Origin: a virus
Virus record (IMG/VR): IMGVR_UViG_3300005253_000128
Span: 1 to 20,509 of that record
DNA: 20,509 nucleotides
Reading direction: 5' to 3' (one strand)
Under the pieces are notes generated by a model. The model saw nothing but the letters and a program-made list of their open reading frames with translations, did no database searches and had not been told where the DNA came from. Positions 8,963 to 16,820 of this stretch are shown piece after piece; the first letter of the stretch is position 1; every line of letters begins with the position of its first letter. The translations under genes and the position numbers were made by a program.

Positions 8963-9811
8963 TTAGAAACTCGCCCCATCCAATATATCCCCCACCTGCT
9001 CCTCAGCCTCCTCCATCATCTGGTCGTAGCTGACATCTCTTGCTTGCCATTGCACAGTCTTAGTAGACTCAACCTTGGATTCAGGCTCATAGTCAATCTC
9101 AGATGTCCAATCATGTGCTCCCCAGATCGAAAGGAAGAACGCTCGCACTCTATCGTCCTTCCGCCCCCACCTTGCCCGAAGCGTGGACTCCATCCAATCA
9201 GAGGTACAGTCAGCACACTCTTCAACCAACCAAGGAGAACGAAAGAGTATCCCCCCTCGGTCGATATGGCGGAGACACTTCATAAACAGAATCTTGTTGC
9301 TCTCTCGCGTGGCTGCCCAACCGAAGGTGTTGCTACGCTTTACCTTCATCTGGTCGAGGGTTGACCATCTCCATAGGTTCGGGTAGCTATAGCGACTCAA
9401 TAACTCTCTGACTGTGGTTACCCCAGGGCCAGTGGTTTCGATGACAGCGAGGGCTGCCTCCTCCTCACTTCTACCCTTGTAGAGCCTCCCGACTGCATTC
9501 ACCACCTCAGCGATGTCGATGGCGTCGATGGGGGCGGCATATTCAGCCACCTGCACATCCGACTTCGGCGGTACCCCTATACGGATAACCTGTATCACTC
9601 CATTGTCGGTGTCCACATCATCGCGGGAGCGAGAGAGGCGATTCCACCCAGCAAGCCCAATGGTCGGGTCGTTGCCAAGAGAGTAGATTTCGTTGGCCTT
9701 CGGTTCCTCATAGAGCCACAAAATCCCTCTGGGGTCACCATCCCACTTCTCGTCGAGGTAGTTGGCATCCATCGCGGGGATATGGGTCTTCCCTATCTTC
9801 CAGCCGTCCAC
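8963..9811 (-). CDS. terL: Terminase large subunit, nuclease part (separate ORF)
   Basis: A 282-aa ORF carrying the RNase H-like nuclease half of a phage large terminase. D48 in SLGNDPTIGLAGW, E125 in ALAVIETTGPG and the D219-D220 pair in RKDDRVRAFFLSIWGAHDW correspond to the metal-binding acidic residues that cut concatemeric DNA. It begins at GTG 9811, whose G is the last base of the ATPase ORF stop (TAGTG). Normally the two halves are one polypeptide. Here they lie in different frames joined over a G-GGG-GGC stretch, so the product could be a separate subunit, a -1 frameshift fusion, or the result of a one-base error in the G-run. Confidence 0.8.
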   Translation of the reverse strand: MDGWKIGKTHIPAMDANYLDEKWDGDPRGILWLYEEPKANEIYSLGNDPTIGLAGWNRLSRSRDDVDTDNGVIQVIRIGVPPKSDVQVAEYAAPIDAIDIAEVVNAVGRLYKGRSEEEAALAVIETTGPGVTTVRELLSRYSYPNLWRWSTLDQMKVKRSNTFGWAATRESNKILFMKCLRHIDRGGILFRSPWLVEECADCTSDWMESTLRARWGRKDDRVRAFFLSIWGAHDWTSEIDYEPESKVESTKTVQWQARDVSYDQMMEEAEEQVGDILDGASF

Positions 9812-11028
9812 TAGAGGCCCCCCAACCGAACATCAAATGGCTTTCCCGTTGTCGTTTGCAGCCGCAACTTCTCCAAGATTTCAGGGGCGAAAGCGGATTG
9901 GCCGGTGTGTTGGAAACTCTCCTCCGGCGTGGCACAATAGTTCGTGAGGAAGATGTTCAACACCCCCCGCTTGACTGCATCCCCTCTCTCGGACTCCCAC
10001 CAGTAAAGCTGCTCCGGGGAAAGCATGACTGCCCTGCCAATCCACTCCGGGCTGGTTTCGTAAACCTTCTTGGCATGGAGCATAGCAATCTCAGAGGGCT
10101 TCCACCCTGCTGGGGGAGTGAACCGATACTTCTTCTCCTCGGCATACCAGGGGATGAATAAGTAACGCCACCGCGAGGAACCCTTGATGCGAATCCGCTC
10201 GGTGAAGTCATGCCACCAATTAACCCTCCCCTGGGCGGTTGACTCAAGGATACAGAGGGTCGAAGCAGCCCTGGGGATAGTTGGGTAGAGGTCATTCTCA
10301 ATCGTCAGCGGATACGGCCAGGAAGCACATTCGGTCAGGTGGATGACATCGAACTGTCGTCCTTGGCCGACTCCGCTTTTCTGGCTCCCGACCTGATAGA
10401 GCACCTTGCTGGAGAGCTTGCCGAAATGGATATGAGCGCCCTTTTCGTCGTACTTTATCTCCGGCTTCAGCCACCAAGGTAGATTGTCGAGGATGGTCTT
10501 GTCCCTGGTGTAGAGTTCCATCACCTTGTCCTCATCAACCGAACCCGCGAGGACTCGGACACCTGGGACAGTGGTGAGGCGATGGGCTGAGAGGGAGCGA
10601 CAGAGGGCAGTCATTCCGAGTTGCCGAGCCTTGTGTGCAGCCACAAGGGTGCCGATAGCATCTGCCTTGTTAGCTACTCGATACTGGTCTTCATCCTGCC
10701 ACTTGGCCAGGTGCTTCAAGACTATCCGTTGGCTTCCCCACAAGTGTAGGTGACCAAGCCCACCGCCTTCCATCGCATCCAATTCTATTGTGTGATAGCG
10801 TTCCGAATGGTACAAATAGTCAATCGTGCTGAGCAGGGTCTCGTTGAGGATGAACCTGTCCTCTTCAGGGGTCAGGGCACGACGCAACAGTTTCTTGTCC
10901 GAGTCATAAGCAGCATCAAGGTGAGCCACCCATGCTTCTACCTTGTCAAGGGGGTAGCGGGTCAACTTGAAGCCCAAGCGCTTCTCTAAGCGTCCTTGTT
11001 GGTCGTCGATGATCTTTTGGGAGTACAT
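9811..11028 (-). CDS. terL: Terminase large subunit, ATPase part
   Basis: A 405-aa ORF holding the packaging motor ATPase. Walker A-like KARQLGMT lies at 133-140, the Walker B stretch FDVIHLTE at 226-233 ends in the catalytic Glu, and the coupling motif LCILESTAQG is at 258-267. The protein ends with NYCATPEESFQHTGQSAFAP, which in ordinary large terminases leads straight into the nuclease domain. The stop TAG follows three codons after a G6 run. The enzyme translocates DNA into the prohead in complex with the small subunit and the portal. The start at 11028 has a weak ribosome site, fitting coupling with the gene before it. Confidence 0.85.
   Translation of the reverse strand: MYSQKIIDDQQGRLEKRLGFKLTRYPLDKVEAWVAHLDAAYDSDKKLLRRALTPEEDRFILNETLLSTIDYLYHSERYHTIELDAMEGGGLGHLHLWGSQRIVLKHLAKWQDEDQYRVANKADAIGTLVAAHKARQLGMTALCRSLSAHRLTTVPGVRVLAGSVDEDKVMELYTRDKTILDNLPWWLKPEIKYDEKGAHIHFGKLSSKVLYQVGSQKSGVGQGRQFDVIHLTECASWPYPLTIENDLYPTIPRAASTLCILESTAQGRVNWWHDFTERIRIKGSSRWRYLFIPWYAEEKKYRFTPPAGWKPSEIAMLHAKKVYETSPEWIGRAVMLSPEQLYWWESERGDAVKRGVLNIFLTNYCATPEESFQHTGQSAFAPEILEKLRLQTTTGKPFDVRLGGL
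9816..9830 (-). promoter_or_regulatory. Candidate -1 frameshift site in terL (G-GGG-GGC)
   Basis: On the minus strand, codons TTG GGG GGC CTC TAG contain the heptamer G-GGG-GGC, which fits the X-XXY-YYZ pattern for tandem -1 slippage. A -1 slip would continue CCT CTA GTG GAC into the nuclease ORF, giving one full-length TerL. The two frames overlap by only about 24 nt (an in-frame TGA lies just upstream), and the heptamer is inside that overlap. I could not find an obvious strong stimulatory stem close downstream. Confidence 0.4.
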
Positions 11029-11546: not shown

Positions 11547-12156
11547 CGACAACTTCCCCCTCTGTTGTTGGTTCAGACAACAATTGTTGTGCCAACCCCA
11601 CTCTTGTCTCCAGCGACTGTGGCCCACCGACATTTATTTGAATGGCCTGCCCAGGGGCACGCTTGCCTATCAGGCCCGCCATCTCAAGCACGAGCTTTCG
11701 ATTATCCAGGTCGCCCTTGACCACTATGACTCCCTTGCCCTTGCAACTCTTGCAGGAAGCATCCTTGACCCTCCCCTCTCCTCCACATCGTTCACAAGGC
11801 ACCTGATGCGAGAGGGCATCATCAGCGGTCTCCTCCATGACATCAGGGAGCTTCCTGCCCATCCTGATAATCCCCTCAGCCTTCTTGGCGGAGGTGAATA
11901 GGAGAATCAACTCTGACGCTGGCATCCCTGACATGACTGCGAGCTTGCCGATGGTTGCTTTGTTGAAGAGGGGATTCGACAGCAACGCCAACAACTTCTC
12001 CGCCTTGGCGTTCTCAGGGAAGTGGCCCAGCACCTCCTGCCACTCCTGCTTGTCAACCATCTTGGAGAGCTTCATAAAGGTGCGGTCATGCCTGACATCA
12101 AGGATAGCCTTGCTGCCGCCCTTCCCTCTCGGGGCTACGAGTCGGTGTCGGGGCAC
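11509..12156 (-). CDS. terS: Terminase small subunit candidate with DnaJ-like zinc finger
   Basis: A 215-aa protein two small genes ahead of terL. Residues 65-90 (KATIGKLAVMSGMPASELIL) look like a helix-turn-helix, and residues 121-142 form CERCGGEGRV...CKSCKGKGV: two CxxCxGxG repeats, half of a DnaJ zinc domain, enough for one zinc. The tail (AIQINVGGPQSLETRVG) resembles the oligomerisation ends of phage TerS proteins. TerS recognises the packaging site and feeds DNA to TerL. GTG 12156 is preferred because GGAG lies 5 nt upstream. Identification rests on position, HTH and size. An alternative is a zinc-finger regulator. Confidence 0.55.
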   Translation of the reverse strand: MPRHRLVAPRGKGGSKAILDVRHDRTFMKLSKMVDKQEWQEVLGHFPENAKAEKLLALLSNPLFNKATIGKLAVMSGMPASELILLFTSAKKAEGIIRMGRKLPDVMEETADDALSHQVPCERCGGEGRVKDASCKSCKGKGVIVVKGDLDNRKLVLEMAGLIGKRAPGQAIQINVGGPQSLETRVGLAQQLLSEPTTEGEVVDAESVEELPTDG

Positions 12157-12326
12157 TCTGTCTCCAATGTGCTCTCAAGCAATCCCATCAGGGCTGAAAT
12201 CGCCTTCACCTCTCCCGCCTCCCACCTGACCACAGTCGTCCTGTTCACCCCTAGCTTATCAGCCAGGGCCTGCTGGCTCCATCCCCTTTCCTGGCGAAGC
12301 TGGCGAATCTGGGTGGGGGTTAGCAC
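12135..12326 (-). CDS. XRE/Cro-CI type HTH regulator
   Basis: A 63-aa protein consisting almost only of a lambda-repressor-like HTH: TPTQIRQLRQERGWSQQALA then KLGVNRTTVVRWEAGEV, with the recognition helix around residues 27-37. This is the standard XRE domain that binds palindromic operators as a dimer. It starts at GTG 12326, overlaps the SprT-like gene by 7 nt and overlaps the next gene by 22 nt, so it is expressed with the packaging genes. It is a candidate to bind the palindromes at 12944-12960 or the repeated operators on the right arm; nothing in the sequence decides between these. Confidence 0.85.
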   Translation of the reverse strand: MLTPTQIRQLRQERGWSQQALADKLGVNRTTVVRWEAGEVKAISALMGLLESTLETECPDTDS

Positions 12327-12674: not shown

Positions 12675-12863
12675 CTAAATCTCTAAATCTCCAAACCGCA
12701 CGCCGCGTTTCATTGTTTCCTCCACGCGGGACTGATCCTCTGGAGAACACCCCTCAATCCAGCGAATCAAGAGAATGCCTTCAGGTGTGACAAACAGGAG
12801 TGCCGCTGGCTTAGCGCCCATTTGTAGTAGAGGCTCCCCAACATCCAACTGAATCATCGACAT
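12675..12863 (-). CDS. First gene of the leftward operon, unknown 62-aa protein
   Basis: A 62-aa protein with a beta/alpha feel (AALLFVTPEGILLIRWIEGC, EDQSRVEETMKRGVRFGDL) and no motif I recognise. The ATG at 12863 has an excellent ribosome site (AAGGAG, 6 nt). It is the first gene downstream of the candidate leftward promoter at 12941-12960 apart from the 41-aa ORF. Neighbours suggest a small regulatory or accessory role in the late operon. Confidence 0.65.
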   Translation of the reverse strand: MSMIQLDVGEPLLQMGAKPAALLFVTPEGILLIRWIEGCSPEDQSRVEETMKRGVRFGDLEI

Positions 12864-12940
12864 CTCACACTCCTTGACCCATCGAGGCTATCACACCTCT
12901 GTGGCAGATGCAACAGGCCCCTCTCAGCGTGCCCATAGAA

Positions 12941-12960
12941 ATTATCACAACTTTTGTGAT
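12941..12960 (-). promoter_or_regulatory. Leftward promoter -10 with overlapping palindromic operator
   Basis: The plus strand reads ATCACAA-CTT-TTGTGAT (12944-12960), a perfect 7-bp dyad. On the minus strand the dyad runs into TGTGATAAT, an extended -10 (TGn + GATAAT) about 80 nt ahead of the leftward operon start at 12863. The -35 (CTGTGA at 17 bp) is weak, as in activator- or repressor-controlled promoters. A second, less regular CACA-CCTC-TGTG dyad lies near 12893-12904. Confidence 0.5.
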
Positions 12961-12963
12961 ATC

Positions 12964-13089
12964 TCACAGCAGGGCACAGTGTAGTTTGACTTTGTAGCCA
13001 CGACACAGAAGCCAAGCCTTTGCCAGAGAATCTAGGTAGGTGTTGTCAAAGGCCCGCATGAGCTTGTAGTTGAACCAGTACCTATTCAT
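12964..13089 (-). CDS. 41-aa basic peptide in the divergent control region
   Basis: A short minus-strand ORF just upstream of the leftward promoter palindrome. It encodes MNRYWFNYKLMRAFDNTYL and continues LAKAWLLCRGYKVKLHCALL, an aromatic and basic peptide with two cysteines. GAGGGG precedes the ATG at 13089. No family is recognised. It might be a leader peptide or small regulator. It is below the usual length threshold and no homologue is known to me, so it may also be a chance frame. Confidence 0.4.
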   Translation of the reverse strand: MNRYWFNYKLMRAFDNTYLDSLAKAWLLCRGYKVKLHCALL

Positions 13090-13153: not shown

Positions 13154-13191
13154 GCGGCGGCCATTTTGGTGTTCCGTACACAAATAGTGGA

Positions 13192-13250
13192 CTGTCAGGA
13201 AAAGTGGACGAATTGCTGACAGACTGATGCAGGTGCGTCAGGCCACTTTT
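13192..13250. repeat. Mutually exclusive inverted repeats
   Basis: CTGTCAG (13192-13198) pairs with CTGACAG (13216-13222). The same CTGAC can instead pair with GTCAG (13237-13241), inside an outer stem AAAAGTGG (13200-13207) with CCACTTTT (13243-13250). AGTGGAC also occurs twice as a direct repeat (13186-13192, 13203-13209). The two folds exclude each other, as in attenuators or origin-type structures. Confidence 0.5.
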
Positions 13251-13543: not shown

Positions 13544-13579
13544 TTGACATGAGCTGGGGCTGGTGCTACTATGGAAGCA
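13544..13579 (+). promoter_or_regulatory. Early promoter-operator module P1
   Basis: TTGACA (13544-13549), 17-bp spacer ending in TGC, -10 TACTAT (13567-13572). A degenerate dyad TGCTACTATGGAAGCA (13564-13579) covers the -10. It is followed by GTGAGGTGACAAC and the start codon at 13596. It is the first of four related modules and the one with the least perfect dyad and best -10. Confidence 0.8.
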
Positions 13580-13595
13580 TGAGTGAGGTGACAAC

Positions 13596-13802
13596 ATGTT
13601 CAACGCAACCTACAAAGGGAAGCACGGCACTACAGTCGAGCACGACGACCCCAAGCGGCAGGCTTACAAATACATGGCGCTGGCGCAGGGACAAGGACGG
13701 CACACCAGCACCACTTGGCACGCTGATGGTTGCATAACCGTTAGCGTGGATGGGTTGGAGCCGTTGACATTCGAGCTCGCACAGCCTGTTAGTGCAGCCT
13801 AG
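13596..13802 (+). CDS. First rightward gene, 68-aa unknown protein
   Basis: A 68-aa protein with a polar N-terminal part (MFNATYKGKHGTTVEHDDPK), a helix (RQAYKYMALAQGQG) and a final strand (VSVDGLEPLTFELAQP). GAGG lies 7 nt from the ATG, the spacing shared by all genes opened by the four promoter modules. It is the sole gene between P1 and P2, so it should be one of the first made after infection. Not recognised; the small size and early position would fit a host-takeover protein. Confidence 0.65.
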   Translation: MFNATYKGKHGTTVEHDDPKRQAYKYMALAQGQGRHTSTTWHADGCITVSVDGLEPLTFELAQPVSAA

Positions 13803-13830
13803 CCCGACTCCCTGCCCTTACCGATTTCAC

Positions 13831-13866
13831 TTGACAAGGGCAGGTGGGCGTGCTACTGTGGTAGCA
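13831..13866 (+). promoter_or_regulatory. Early promoter-operator module P2
   Basis: TTGACA (13831-13836), 17 bp, -10 TACTGT (13854-13859) preceded by TGC; dyad TGCTAC-TGTG-GTAGCA (13851-13866) with perfect 6-bp arms over the -10. GATTTCAC just upstream and AAGGG after the -35 are shared with P4. Confidence 0.85.
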
Positions 13867-13882
13867 GTAGAGAGGTGAGACA

Positions 13883-14101
13883 ATGGCACTAAGCAAGCAA
13901 CAGGAAGATGAGCTAATGCAGATATGGTACACATCTAAAACCGCTAGGGACGGACTCCATGCACGGTTGCTGTGGACTCGTGACTGGTTCATCAAGCGGC
14001 ATCCTGAATACAAACCGCTGCACATCTACAAGGAGCTGAATCGCTTGACCTATTGGCTGAAACCAATAAGCGCAGGATTCAGGATGGAGGATTTACGATG
14101 A
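13883..14101 (+). CDS. 72-aa small basic protein, unknown
   Basis: A 72-aa helical protein with many aromatic and basic residues (MALSKQQEDELMQIWYTSKT, ARLLWTRDWFIKRHPEY). It starts 7 nt after GAGG, downstream of P2, and ends in an ATGA overlap with the next gene. The pattern of charged helices suggests a nucleic-acid or protein-binding early factor, with no recognised family. Confidence 0.65.
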   Translation: MALSKQQEDELMQIWYTSKTARDGLHARLLWTRDWFIKRHPEYKPLHIYKELNRLTYWLKPISAGFRMEDLR

Positions 14102-14325
14102 CACACAAAGACTACATCGTACTTGCACAAGCAATTCAAAACGGTAGACACGATGCGCTTGGTGTTGAGCCAGAGTTAGACTCCCAGGCCATTGAGTACA
14201 CCATTGACACAATCGCGGTTTTTATCGCTAACGCCCTGCTAAACGACAACCCGCGATTTGACCACGCCCATTTTCTCCGCGTAGTGCGGGAAGAAAAGGC
14301 GCTAACGTCTAGGCCACCGCAATAG
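14098..14325 (+). CDS. Conserved short phage protein (NPRFD type)
   Basis: A 75-aa protein starting MTHKDYIVLAQAIQNGR and ending with a helix FIANALLNDNPRFDHAHFLR. From memory, small phage proteins with this MT-KDY start and a late NPRFD-x-x-F-x-R motif are widespread in tailed phages and prophages with no assigned function. ATG 14098 overlaps the previous stop (ATGA) and has GGAGG 7 nt upstream; an upstream frame to 14053 would overlap the previous gene needlessly. Confidence 0.75.
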   Translation: MTHKDYIVLAQAIQNGRHDALGVEPELDSQAIEYTIDTIAVFIANALLNDNPRFDHAHFLRVVREEKALTSRPPQ

Positions 14326-14335
14326 CGCTCGCCGT

Positions 14336-14355
14336 CTGCATCCTCTGGGGTGCAG
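14336..14355. terminator. Hairpin between convergent genes (weak terminator candidate)
   Basis: CTGCATCC-TCTG-GGGTGCAG: an 8-bp stem (one G-T pair) with a 4-base loop, placed between the end of the rightward gene (14325) and the end of the leftward zinc-type ORF (14380). No U-tract follows on either strand, so termination would be weak or factor-dependent. Confidence 0.35.
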
Positions 14356-14379
14356 GCTGATGGATGCTATGACGTTAAC

Positions 14380-14616
14380 CTATTCATTCTCAATAGCTTC
14401 CGCTGGTGGCTCGATTTGCCCAGGGGTCGGCTCCCTTAGAGGTTTAGACGTAGCAGGTGTCAAGTGCATATGAATATGATGCCTACGCATACAATCAGGG
14501 TAGGGACAAATCACGCTCTCGCTGTACTGAGAGCCTCTGAAATGCATCCACCTATGGCAAGCGAGACACTCCGCATGGACTCCGCCGAGAGTGTACATCT
14601 TTCGGGCTGGGCGCAT
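14380..14616 (-). CDS. Zinc-type protein on the opposite strand
   Basis: A 78-aa ORF running against its neighbours. It contains CLACHRWMHF and, 20 residues on, ICPYPDCMRRHH, a plausible zinc-binding knuckle (two Cys pairs plus His), and then a proline-rich tail. The plus-strand frame here (14464-14661) has no such pattern. ATG 14616 has no ribosome site but follows TATACT by 7 bases, as for a leaderless message; an internal ATG at 14598 is possible. It lies between the P2 and P3 clusters. Reality is supported by the Cys/His pattern only. Confidence 0.5.
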   Translation of the reverse strand: MRPARKMYTLGGVHAECLACHRWMHFRGSQYSESVICPYPDCMRRHHIHMHLTPATSKPLREPTPGQIEPPAEAIENE

Positions 14617-14647
14617 GGCAGGGAGTATATCACAGGAGGGCTGGACG

Positions 14648-14869
14648 ATGAAGACCTATAGCGTCACCATCCAACACAAATCAGGGACTTGGCAGACGAA
14701 CTGGTACAAATACACCGCCCCGGACGAGATCAATTGGGATAAAGTTGCGTCCTCCGCTGCGGAGCACGATTCACTTGCCTACGGCTACCAGCATGGACAT
14801 GATAGCTACAACCTAGTATCTGCCCGTACTAGGACTGTGCTTTGGGAGCGGGGGAGTCATCGTGGGTAG
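14648..14869 (+). CDS. 73-aa protein, unknown
   Basis: A 73-aa protein with a beta-type start (MKTYSVTIQHKSGTWQTNWY), a middle helix (INWDKVASSAAEHD) and a YGYQHGHDSYNLVSA stretch. GGAGG lies 8 nt before the ATG. It is upstream of P3 and has no own module of the P1-P4 type, so it is probably transcribed from P2 or a local promoter. Not recognised. Confidence 0.65.
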   Translation: MKTYSVTIQHKSGTWQTNWYKYTAPDEINWDKVASSAAEHDSLAYGYQHGHDSYNLVSARTRTVLWERGSHRG

Positions 14870-14889
14870 GATAGCACCTAAAATAGTCC

Positions 14890-14925
14890 TTGACAAGCCC
14901 TAATAGCTGTGCTACCACGGTAGCA
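14890..14925 (+). promoter_or_regulatory. Early promoter-operator module P3
   Basis: TTGACA (14890-14895), 17 bp, -10 TACCAC (14913-14918) preceded by TGC. The dyad TGCTACC-AC-GGTAGCA (14910-14925) has perfect 7-bp arms, the most symmetric of the four. Its -10 is the poorest, so operator symmetry seems to be kept at the cost of promoter strength. Confidence 0.8.
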
Positions 14926-14945
14926 GATTCGAGGGAGGTGAGATG

Positions 14946-15125
14946 ATGACTAACCAGCAACGCCTATATCGACTGGCCCGGCGAGATGGGTTCGACCTCT
15001 ACGCTGCGCGAGAGTTAGCAAAGGTGACACCCAATGGCGTCCCCTGGCATTCAGTCTGGTGGGCCTACATGTGGGGGCCGATGTTTCAAGCAAGAATGCA
15101 GGATGCGTTGAAGGTGCGACAATGA
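14946..15125 (+). CDS. 59-aa HTH-like small protein, unknown
   Basis: A 59-aa protein opened by P3. Residues MTNQQRLYRLARRDGFDLYA and RELAKVTPNGVPWHSVWW suggest a compact helical fold. Two ATGs are adjacent (14943, 14946); the second keeps the 7-nt gap to GGAGG found at P1, P2 and P4, so I choose it. The end overlaps the next start as ATGA. Not recognised. Confidence 0.6.
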   Translation: MTNQQRLYRLARRDGFDLYAARELAKVTPNGVPWHSVWWAYMWGPMFQARMQDALKVRQ

Positions 15126-15283
15126 CACTACGACAGTTTATCAAAGAGAATCGTCAAGCGTTGGACGAGATCATCCAAAGTCTAGCCCCAGGGTCGTCCA
15201 AGAGCGATAGTGAGCGCGAACTGTGGGTGCTCAACGATGAAGACCTCTACAACTGGGCGCGGTCTGAGGGGGTGCGGATATAA
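15122..15283 (+). CDS. Conserved short phage protein (WARSEGVRI type)
   Basis: A 53-aa protein with a helical start MTLRQFIKENRQALDEIIQS and the ending LWVLNDEDLYNWARSEGVRI. I recall this ending (LNDE-LY-WARSEGV) in many short phage and prophage proteins, which often have a central cysteine pair that is missing here. Function unknown. It is linked by ATGA to the gene before and by TAATG to the gene after. Confidence 0.75.
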   Translation: MTLRQFIKENRQALDEIIQSLAPGSSKSDSERELWVLNDEDLYNWARSEGVRI

Positions 15284-15564
15284 TGGGACAAGACAGTAAG
15301 ACTTTACACACCTTTGAGTGTAATAGGTGTTCAAACACGACGCCATGGCAATCAAGTTATAAACCGCCAAATGGATGGTATTGGTTGAAATGGCCGTGGG
15401 AGGGGCCGCCTACGGAAACCCCCACAGGAGTAAATTCGTTGTGCCCTGATTGTATAGCGGCCTTCTTTGAATGGTGGGAAGGCAAAAAACCAGGTGGAAT
15501 TGCAATCTGTCCCTGTGGTGATCCTGAATGCTGTGGAATCCACGACGGGATACAGGACAAATAG
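15283..15564 (+). CDS. Multi-cysteine zinc protein
   Basis: A 93-aa protein with C13xxC16 (FECNRCSN), C54xxC57 (LCPDC) and a C-terminal cluster at 76, 78, 83 and 84 (CPCGDPECC). Eight cysteines, with the first two pairs forming a ribbon and the last possibly a second metal site, surround a tryptophan-rich middle (GWYWLKWPWEG). The start overlaps the previous stop by one base (TAATG). Such mini zinc-ribbons often bridge proteins or bind nucleic acid; the partner is unknown. Confidence 0.65.
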   Translation: MGQDSKTLHTFECNRCSNTTPWQSSYKPPNGWYWLKWPWEGPPTETPTGVNSLCPDCIAAFFEWWEGKKPGGIAICPCGDPECCGIHDGIQDK

Positions 15565-15566
15565 CT

Positions 15567-15761
15567 ATGAGCAAAAGAAAGGCTGACCCTTACTCCATGA
15601 GCAATCCTGGGGCGTCTAGCAAAACGCCGCTAGTGCCAACTTGGGTCGCTGAGCACGAGGAACACATTGCCCGCCGCTTAGCAGATGGTTGGTATGCTAT
15701 CCATTTCTGCCAAGAGTGTCAAGAAGAGAAGCGGCAAGAGGAAATGTGGAAGAAGTCATGA
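15567..15761 (+). CDS. 64-aa protein with a CxxC motif
   Basis: A 64-aa protein starting MSKRKADPYSMSNPGASSKT, with a HIARRLADGWYAIHFCQECQ segment and a charged tail EEKRQEEMWKKS. One Cys pair alone cannot bind zinc without help from His, so a dimeric site is possible. ATG 15567 is used instead of 15528, which lies inside the preceding gene. The ribosome site is weak (AGGA, 10 nt). Confidence 0.55.
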   Translation: MSKRKADPYSMSNPGASSKTPLVPTWVAEHEEHIARRLADGWYAIHFCQECQEEKRQEEMWKKS

Positions 15762-15811
15762 TCAACCAAACCAAGCGGGAGTCAATAGTCAATGAGCTAC
15801 ACTCCCCCTGA
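15758..15811 (+). CDS. 17-codon ORF in an ATGA chain
   Basis: A tiny frame (MINQTKRESIVNELHSP) that starts in an ATGA overlap with the gene before it and encloses the start of the next gene. It may be a real mini-gene, a coupling relay that passes ribosomes to the gene at 15792, or chance. I list it with low weight. Confidence 0.25.
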   Translation: MINQTKRESIVNELHSP

Positions 15812-16010
15812 TCTAGGCAAGTTTAAGGGCGGCAAGCGTGGGCCACAGCGTAGGGGGCCGCTACGCAAGGTAGTCAAGACCCTGCGGGAGTCTGAGGGGA
15901 TATTTGACCGGCCCACTGTAGAGCTAGAGTGCGGCCATGTGACTACGTCGTGGGGAGTCAAGGCAAGGTGCTCGGAGTGTAGGAAGGTGGTTAAGGGAGG
16001 AATGAGATGA
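15792..16010 (+). CDS. Basic protein with a C-terminal zinc-type motif
   Basis: A 72-aa, very basic protein. Residues 10-35 are K/R/G-rich (KFKGGKRGPQRRGPLRKVVK), followed by ELECGHVTTSWGVKARCSEC, in which one Cys/His and one CxxC pair can hold a zinc. From memory, the 'CGH....C..C' ending is a frequent short phage/host protein motif. A basic DNA- or RNA-binding role is likely. It is joined by ATGA to the next gene. GGGAG lies about 11 nt before ATG. Confidence 0.6.
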   Translation: MSYTPPDLGKFKGGKRGPQRRGPLRKVVKTLRESEGIFDRPTVELECGHVTTSWGVKARCSECRKVVKGGMR

Positions 16011-16141
16011 CACACCGAGAACGTTACGAGGAATACTGCCAAGCAAAGCGAGAGCTAGAGGAGATACCGTTCACCTTTGAGGACTGGCTATGGCTAGACG
16101 ATGCTCACCGAGTCAGGGCTGAAGTTGATGGGGAGGAATAG
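16007..16141 (+). CDS. 44-aa acidic protein, unknown
   Basis: A 44-codon gene with the ATGA overlap at its start. The peptide MTHRERYEEYCQAKRELEEI ... FTFEDWLWLDDAHRVRAEV is a charged helix followed by an acidic, aromatic motif. No family is recognised. Ribosome site AGGGAGG lies 8 nt upstream. Confidence 0.5.
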   Translation: MTHRERYEEYCQAKRELEEIPFTFEDWLWLDDAHRVRAEVDGEE

Positions 16142-16148
16142 GTTAGTG

Positions 16149-16262
16149 ATGCGTTTCAAGAAAGAATGGTTCGGGCTGGATGACCCCCTTGTCTTAATAG
16201 TGTTACTAGCGTTGCCAATTATTGTGGTTCTGTTTCTGGTTTATGTAGCCATTACGAATTGA
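16149..16262 (+). CDS. 37-aa membrane peptide
   Basis: A tiny gene encoding MRFKKEWFGLDDPLVLIVLL followed by ALPIIVVLFLVYVAITN: a short basic head and one transmembrane helix of about 25 residues. Start options ATG 16149 or GTG 16146 both follow GGGGAGG by about 10 nt. One of several single-span mini-proteins on this arm (others at 17049, 18593, 18845, 20118). Confidence 0.5.
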   Translation: MRFKKEWFGLDDPLVLIVLLALPIIVVLFLVYVAITN

Positions 16263-16274
16263 AGGGAGGAGCCC

Positions 16275-16439
16275 ATGACACAGCAAAGTAAGTTAGCAAA
16301 GGTGACTTGTTGCCGGTGCGGTGAGACTTTCGAGTACGAGGACGATGGGGTAACTATGGGGTGTATGCCTGATGGTGCGTTCCTGCACTTTCAGGAGAAC
16401 GAGTGGGCCTGTTCAGACTGCTTAGAGGATGGTGAATAA
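16275..16439 (+). CDS. 54-aa zinc-ribbon protein
   Basis: A 54-aa protein whose middle reads KVTCCRCGETFEYED and, after a loop, NEWACSDCLEDGE: two Cys pairs about 36 residues apart, the layout of a compact zinc ribbon. Ribosome site GGGAGG 6 nt upstream. The first residues (MTQQSK) match those of the protein at 17203, probably by chance or from shared leader sequence. Function unknown; nucleic-acid or protein binding is likely. Confidence 0.6.
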   Translation: MTQQSKLAKVTCCRCGETFEYEDDGVTMGCMPDGAFLHFQENEWACSDCLEDGE

Positions 16440-16468
16440 TGAGGGGCAAATAACCCATGTGATTTCAC

Positions 16469-16504
16469 TTGACAAGGGTTAGGTAGTGTGCTACTAGGGT
16501 AGTG
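16469..16504 (+). promoter_or_regulatory. Early promoter-operator module P4
   Basis: TTGACA (16469-16474), 17 bp, -10 TACTAG (16492-16497) preceded by TGC. The dyad TGCTAC-TAGG-GTAGTG (16489-16504) has five matching bases on the right half. GATTTCACTTGACAAGGG is shared with P2. Confidence 0.8.
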
Positions 16505-16522
16505 AGTTAGGGAGGTGAGACG

Positions 16523-16714
16523 ATGAAAGACTCGATTAAGTGTTGGTTCTACTGTGAGGACGCCCCCGCTTGGGCTGCCTGCTCAGACATAGGCGGCAAT
16601 ACCAAACCCTTTAGGATGCTAGATGGCGAGTTGATCCAAGTTTGCCCGCGCCACTTTCGACAAGTAGCACTAGAAATGGGGATTGGCGTGGGGCTAGGCG
16701 AAAGGCCCTTGTAG
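16523..16714 (+). CDS. 63-aa Cys-containing protein opened by P4
   Basis: A 63-aa protein with four cysteines in two clusters (KCWFYCEDAPAWAACS and ELIQVCPRHFRQ), which with the late His could form one zinc site. GGAGG lies exactly 7 nt from ATG 16523. The end is followed at once by a GGCCCTT/AAGGGCC dyad and a 100-nt non-coding stretch. Similar 'CEDAPAWAAC..' small proteins are common in phage accessory regions by my recollection, without a known role. Confidence 0.65.
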   Translation: MKDSIKCWFYCEDAPAWAACSDIGGNTKPFRMLDGELIQVCPRHFRQVALEMGIGVGLGERPL

Positions 16715-16820
16715 TCCCTCCCACAAAAGGGCCATCGGGGAGTCTGTGAGCGCAGTCTGTCGCTGAGTTATCAAGGCGTGATCGGGCTCCCCTTCGGCCT
16801 CAGGGTGAGGGATTGGAGGA
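16704..16820 (+). ncRNA. Structured non-coding stretch (candidate small RNA or mRNA element)
   Basis: No gene is supported between 16715 and 16820. GGCCCTT (16704-16710) pairs with AAGGGCC (16727-16733); GGGGAG (16737-16742) pairs with CTCCCC (16787-16792), enclosing AGCG (16749-16752)/CGCT (16761-16764). AGTCTGT is repeated at 16741 and 16754. The nested stems suggest a folded RNA. It is not a tRNA: T-loop and length do not fit. Confidence 0.3.

Follow-up and report, generated by a model that had tools for sequence, protein, structure and literature searches.

Phage accessory genes, anti-defence and host-takeover genes included, turn over fast, and the immediate expression of a newly arrived small gene is rarely visible. 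The virus fragment IMGVR_UViG_3300005253_000128 (20,509 bp, analysed at its full length and referred to here as the window, or W) raises this question in a concrete form: in its arm of small genes, the same promoter-like leader stands four times directly before a gene start. What are these modules, which we call P1 to P4? We consider it fairly probable (roughly 0.6) that they are expression elements tied to gene starts in one phage clade, i.e., fixed sites with a conserved boundary that lets small genes be exchanged. Site and cargo are separable here in four coexisting relatives: the promoter and ribosome site are retained while the gene behind them differs, and exchange appears to take place at the start codon.

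The left part of the window is read leftward and contains structural and packaging genes, including those for a P22-like portal (Pfam) and for the terminase large subunit (TerL; 9811-11028, recognised by similarity to annotated ones). The rightward arm starts at ~13.5 kb, and its products are mostly 40-140 amino acids (aa) long. By terminase, the close relatives of the window are three fragments, L101 (96%), L102 (83%), and L103/L119 (80%), and all four genomes are fragments of one metagenome (IMG/VR 3300005253). R101, R102, and R119 denote the reverse complements of L101, L102, and L119, oriented like W, and coordinates with these names refer to the reverse complements. Distant relatives (TerL 42-52%) include records of 58-64 kb, and no DNA match to the window was found among GenBank phage records. 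Terminase similarity is 37% in an Acidobacteria genome contig and only ~26% to Tunturiibacter phages; judged from these two values, Acidobacteriota would be a fair guess for the host.

Four modules and their copies in close relatives

The first-pass annotation of the window had described four modules of one layout, and this description was borne out. TTGACA-N14-TGCTAC matches exactly at 13544, 13831, 14890, and 16469 on the plus strand, with no match on the other strand and none in a reversed control sequence; shuffles predict ~0.01 module matches per genome even with a gap of 13-15. As listed in Table 1, all four modules combine TTGACA, a 17-bp spacing, a TGn preceding the -10 hexamer, and the Shine-Dalgarno (SD) sequence GAGGTGA. 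In all four, GAGG stands 7 nt before an ATG (14946 in P3, the second of its two ATGs), and the stretch from the -35 element to ATG measures 52-56 bp. Furthermore, P2 and P4 have an identical stretch of 18 nt (GATTTCACTTGACAAGGG) in common.

The label "promoter", which had been given to all four modules, is overstated: TTGACA, the spacing, and TGn are present throughout, but the -10 hexamer is good in P1 only. The hexamers of P2 (TACTGT), P3 (TACCAC), and P4 (TACTAG) match TATAAT at only three of six positions, and for this reason a sigma-70 consensus scan of the modules accepted P1 alone. A further promoter-like site lies back to back with P3 on the minus strand (14868-14896; TTGTCA-17-TATCCT with TG) and overlaps the P3 -35 region; its counterpart in R102 reads TTGTCA-17-TACCCT.

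The motif defined in the window was found in each of the three close relatives, where it again stands in this arm, on the same strand, and ahead of small genes. This recurrence supports the earlier proposal of dispersed small-gene units, each with a ready-made promoter and ribosome site. Allowing a gap of 13-15, TTGACA-N13..15-TGCTAC occurs twice in each of R101, R102, and R119 and never on their other strand (expected ≤0.01 per genome). In addition to these six further TTGACA copies, there are two first-site copies without TTGACA: at the first site of R102 and R119 this hexamer is absent at the usual spacing, and TGCTACTATGGTAGCA is present.

Outside the clade, tight module patterns retrieved only the known relatives from IMG/VR, and the distant relatives, in records of up to 58-64 kb, yielded chance-level matches only and no home-grown repeats. 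The pattern TTGACA-N14-TGCTAC-N4-GTAG matched 88 stretches across all IMG/VR contigs. Apart from those on the contigs of two relatives, these stretches have other leaders and contexts, and we interpret them as promoters scattered among other phages rather than as copies of the module.

Fixed sites, two halves and changing genes

The element consists of a promoter half, made up of the -35 and the extended -10, and a junction half (GGTAGCA...GAGGTGA-start). Among 11 promoter-linked copies, both TGCTAC and the GG that follows are invariant (11/11 each). Six promoterless copies carry the second half only, in which GGTAGCA or GGTAGT leads to a Shine-Dalgarno sequence and start codon; nothing promoter-like lies ahead, and GGTAG is kept in all six. 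The distance between these junction halves and the upstream gene's stop codon is 0-6 nt; three of the six provide this stop themselves, through the TAG of GGTAG. GAGGTGA precedes 10 of 17 element genes compared with 3 of 62 other arm genes (Fisher p = 3e-6), an enrichment that is partly circular because GAGGTGA was among the features defining the elements.

Gene order shows which parts of the arm are stable. With F1, F3, F4, and F10 denoting gene families and "half" a promoterless junction half, the arm reads P1-68aa-P2-72aa ... P3-60aa ... F3 ... P4-63aa in W, P1-F1-half-53aa ... F3 ... P4 ... half-F4 in R101, P1-F1-half-F10-half-70aa ... P3-F4-F3 ... P4-85aa-half-61aa in R102, and P1-F10-half-54aa ... 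F3 ... P4-106aa in R119. Two sites are thus syntenic in all four genomes, the first of the rightward arm (P1) and the one after F3 (P4), whereas the genes behind them are mostly unrelated. Behind P1 we found three families in four genomes, namely a gene unrelated to the others in W, F1 in R101 and R102, and F10 in R119; the genes adjoining P4 are mutually unrelated in all four (no BLASTP match). None of the genes behind P1-P4 of the window matched a Pfam or PHROG family.

The homology between sites ends at the start codon. At P3, W and R102 are 90.5% identical over 95 bp (14847-14941), up to the start codon, and the genes beyond are unrelated. The F4 genes of R101 and R102 have 94% protein and 90% nucleotide identity, with nucleotide homology beginning ~12 nt before ATG; yet F4 is preceded in R101 by a P4-type leader without promoter and in R102 by the P3 type with its promoter module, and the leader therefore belongs to the site. 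Similarly, F10 stands behind a promoter in R119 but not in R102, where its leader is promoterless. A gene for a Dam-type DNA adenine methyltransferase (Pfam E 7e-28; L127, 2242-2727, minus strand) lies directly upstream of R102 P3 and is absent there in the window.

Simple ancestry could account for some of this likeness, since the repeats might descend from a recently duplicated promoter region and be kept by descent rather than by function or exchange. The 18-nt stretch common to P2 and P4 would fit such an origin, as would the P4 copies of W, R102, and R119, which are 83-88% identical. However, the spacers have diverged while TGCTAC and GG remained invariant in all promoter-linked copies, and the two syntenic sites hold their position in four genomes despite the turnover of flanking genes. 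We therefore regard mere duplication as quite unlikely.

As exchangeable start-associated elements, the modules would act as follows. In a full copy, a sigma-70-type promoter (TTGACA, 17 bp, extended -10 TGCTACnnn) would lead straight into the junction half, and host RNA polymerase would start at each full module and transcribe a single small gene or a few of them. The junction half would provide a strong ribosome site, and the TAG in GGTAG could close the reading frame of the preceding gene. This short sequence is repeated within a genome and between phages, and a gene could therefore be swapped with the leader left intact: homologous or homeologous recombination at short common boundaries would replace the gene and spare promoter and leader, thereby placing the incoming small gene behind a working leader. 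If this is confirmed, the sites might serve as search handles for cataloguing small genes that are rapidly exchanged in this group of phages.

Several points weigh against this explanation. The direction and mechanism of exchange are deduced from static comparisons, and a recombinase was not identified. The module-carrying clade has four members only, and promoter activity is predicted from consensus, with weak -10 hexamers in P2-P4. Misassembly at the identical runs of 29-30 nt is conceivable for individual junctions, although most blocks common to the four genomes are diverged (83-91% identity).

A more specific scheme is suggested by the split P4 module of R101, whose promoter part (12936-12977, 42 bp) and junction part (13173-13202, 30 bp) lie ~200 bp apart, and by the layouts P1-F1-junction-F10-junction-gene in R102 and P1-F10-junction-gene in R119. 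These arrangements could reflect an integrase-free gene-capture platform, in which the promoters are fixed, the junction half (GGTAGCA...GAGGTGA-ATG) is the exchange site, and single genes are inserted successively, each with its own junction half. The result would be arrays of single-gene cassettes between direct repeats, like a miniature integron or expression site, with general recombination as the driver. We think of this platform as conceivable but on the whole unlikely.

Table 1. Features of the rightward arm and the putative regulator gene (window coordinates; SD, Shine-Dalgarno sequence)
Feature	Position	Strand	Details
Module P1	13544-13595	+	-35 13544-13549; extended -10 TGCTACTAT 13564-13572; imperfect dyad 13564-13579; SD GAGGTGA 13585-13591; start 13596
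Module P2	13831-13882	+	-35 13831-13836; extended -10 TGCTACTGT 13851-13859; perfect dyad 13851-13866; SD 13872-13878; start 13883
Module P3	14890-14942	+	-35 14890-14895; TGCTACCAC 14910-14918; 7-bp dyad 14910-14925; SD 14935-14941; start 14943 or 14946
Module P4	16469-16522	+	-35 16469-16474; TGCTACTAG 16489-16497; imperfect dyad 16489-16504; SD 16512-16518; start 16523
P4 junction half	16496-16525	+	AGGGTAGTGAGTTAGGGAGGTGAGACGATG; 30/30 identical to promoterless copy R101 13173-13202, 29/30 to R102 15269-15298
Gene behind P1	13596-13802	+	68 aa
Gene behind P2	13883-14101	+	72 aa; no homologue in the three relatives
Gene behind P3	14943-15125	+	60 aa; unrelated to the 103-aa F4 behind the P3 module of R102
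Gene behind P4	16523-16714	+	63 aa
Gene family F3	15792-16010	+	72 aa; kept in all four genomes; landmark for the P4 site, which lies downstream
Conserved block with long complementary arms	16711-16816	+	GGGCCATCGGGGAG...GGGCTCCCCTTCGGCC; follows the variable P4 unit in all four genomes
XRE-type helix-turn-helix protein	12135-12326	-	63 aa; HTH_3, E 6e-12; 84-93% identical in three relatives; proposed regulator

The dyad and a candidate regulator

The first-pass annotation had also proposed that a dyad, TGCTAC-N4-GTAGCA, covers the -10 of every module and serves as an operator, and that the 63-aa helix-turn-helix (HTH) protein binds all copies and thereby silences or times the small-gene units. 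The inverted repeats of the window modules have arms of 6-7 bp around a centre of 2-4 bp. They are perfect in P2 and P3, and P3 does have the 7-bp arms ascribed to it, but the right arm has one mismatch in P1 (GGAAGCA) and two in P4 (GGTAGTG), so that the dyad is present in its full form in only part of the set. The idea that promoter and operator needs conflict, with a good -10 bought at the price of a degraded dyad, was contradicted by the P1 site of R102 and R119, in which TACTAT is joined with a perfect dyad.

Symmetry argues for an operator. Its arms of 6-7 bp are perfect or nearly so and centred just after the -10, a chance arm match is expected at ~1/4096, and perfect dyads occur in P2 and P3 of W, in P1 and P3 of R102, and in P1 and P4 of R119. 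The HTH protein is found in all four module carriers, and a close homologue was not found in the module-less distant relatives. This co-occurrence is a weak argument, however, because one clade counts as one event and clade membership alone explains it.

Other observations explain the two arms separately. The left arm is already fixed by the extended -10, and since the GGTAG of the right arm is kept in 6/6 promoterless copies that lack a left arm, the conservation of the right arm needs no dyad. Its terminal CA sits at the expected -1/+1 position, fitting an initiator (YR). A scan of the IMG/VR collection showed that CA and TA are both enriched at this position in distinct promoters of unrelated phages, which indicates an initiator dinucleotide; wide use of the same dyad, considered because of the CA enrichment after GTAG, was dropped as TA is equally enriched. 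The right arm is damaged in 5 of 11 promoter copies. Furthermore, the HTH gene is one of the leftward genes, whose putative promoter has its own, different dyad. Finally, neither the fragments of this clade nor most of the long relatives yielded a tyrosine integrase; a lysogeny repressor is therefore less expected, and we rejected this role for the protein.

Action of a single regulator through the dyad is a candidate reading only. We judge it decidedly improbable that the 63-aa protein controls all copies through this dyad. An operator of any kind over the -10 is more likely than one paired with this particular protein, and we tentatively regard it as possible, if doubtful.

The different dyad of the leftward group (TATCACAACTTTTGTGATA) lies at 12943-12961 between the divergent arms, where 0.02 are expected, and altered, largely symmetric versions are present in three relatives. 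It overlaps a minus-strand -10-like sequence (TGTGATAAT) of the leftward group containing the HTH gene. Judged by this position, it may be an operator of the leftward genes, and as a target of the HTH protein it is at least as good a candidate as the module dyad.

The dyad could also act in translation only: transcripts reading through from upstream might fold into a hairpin immediately before the SD. For P2 and P3, hairpins in this position have predicted energies of about -11 to -12 kcal/mol, but these folds are no better than those of shuffles (z -0.4 and -1.4, respectively), and the promoterless copies are without the left arm. As the predicted transcript start is the end of the right arm, the mRNA of the module itself would lack the hairpin. 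We consider a purely translational element very improbable.

Known systems and other conserved blocks

Arrangements of this kind have been described, in a different form, for mycobacteriophages and T4-like phages; the present element would work in a similar way but belongs to neither group. In cluster K mycobacteriophages, start-associated sequences (SAS) are short repeats before the starts of many unrelated small non-structural genes (Pope 2011, PMC3203893; PMC12699233). About half of the SAS copies are lengthened upstream by a segment with an inverted repeat, termed extended SAS or ESAS (PMC3203893), and in phage Adephagia the ESAS was read as a SigA-like promoter with a -35/-10 spacing of 17-18 bp, with a possible repressor site suggested (2024, PMC11373665). 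In the four genomes analysed here, the module copies likewise stand before small rightward-arm genes that are unrelated to each other, outside the structural genes. The likeness extends to a promoter-like extension on part of the copies and to an upstream stop that may lie inside the repeat. However, SAS and ESAS belong to a different phage group, and the 13-bp SAS consensus (GGGATAGGAGCCC; up to 2 mismatches) had no match upstream of starts in the window. ESAS of cluster K contain imperfect 17-bp inverted repeats with a variable spacer, whereas the arms here are 6-7 bp long and surround the -10. In addition, cluster K ESAS mostly follow the gene family, whereas here the leader stays with the site, as the varying leaders of F4 and F10 show.

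The promoter early stem-loop (PeSL) cassettes of T4-like phages (Arbiol 2010; Comeau 2014) are held, according to the description in PMC4503421, to mediate gene shuffling. As there described, they resemble our modules in being repeated early-promoter cassettes between small genes that are tied to gene shuffling among relatives, and in our clade, too, different genes stand behind syntenic sites with homology ending at the start codon. They differ, as far as this description goes, in that PeSLs join the promoter to a terminator stem-loop: a consensus scan found no terminator-like site inside P1-P4, the nearest on the plus strand being at 14812-14833, ~57 bp upstream of P3. More generally, short conserved boundary sequences are a standing proposal for recombination between mosaic phage modules (PMC3029335). 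Such boundaries and the junction half have in common that a short conserved edge flanks the exchanged genes, but here the boundary is itself an expression element with promoter, stop, and ribosome site. Cluster O mycobacteriophages contain dispersed 17-bp dyad repeats, many of them in short intergenic gaps and with some recombination between copies (PMC4351075); these dyads are mostly not at promoters, whereas the dyad described here is locked to the extended -10.

Outside the modules, the arm and its junction contain other conserved sequences. The block at 16711-16816 has a consensus fold of -31.8 kcal/mol; neither compensatory changes in this block nor an Rfam match, in a search of the arm, were found. 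A non-coding block upstream of P1 (13225-13340; ...CCACCCTGCTTCACCCCCTTCGTACAATGAATGGGGATA) is 83-91% identical in all relatives and was found nowhere else in IMG/VR. Another repeated leader, GAGGAACCAAACCATGAC (window 17203 region; L101, L119), lacks a promoter-like part; the small genes that it precedes in W, R101, and R119 are unrelated. At the junction of the arms, CTATCACACCTCTGTGGCAGATGCAACAGGCC (12888-12928) is nearly identical in four genomes, with 95% identity to R101 over 41 bp. Close to it, the gene order has changed locally: in W, a 62-aa gene (12675-12863) precedes the HTH and SprT-like genes, whereas in the three relatives it is found on their other side.

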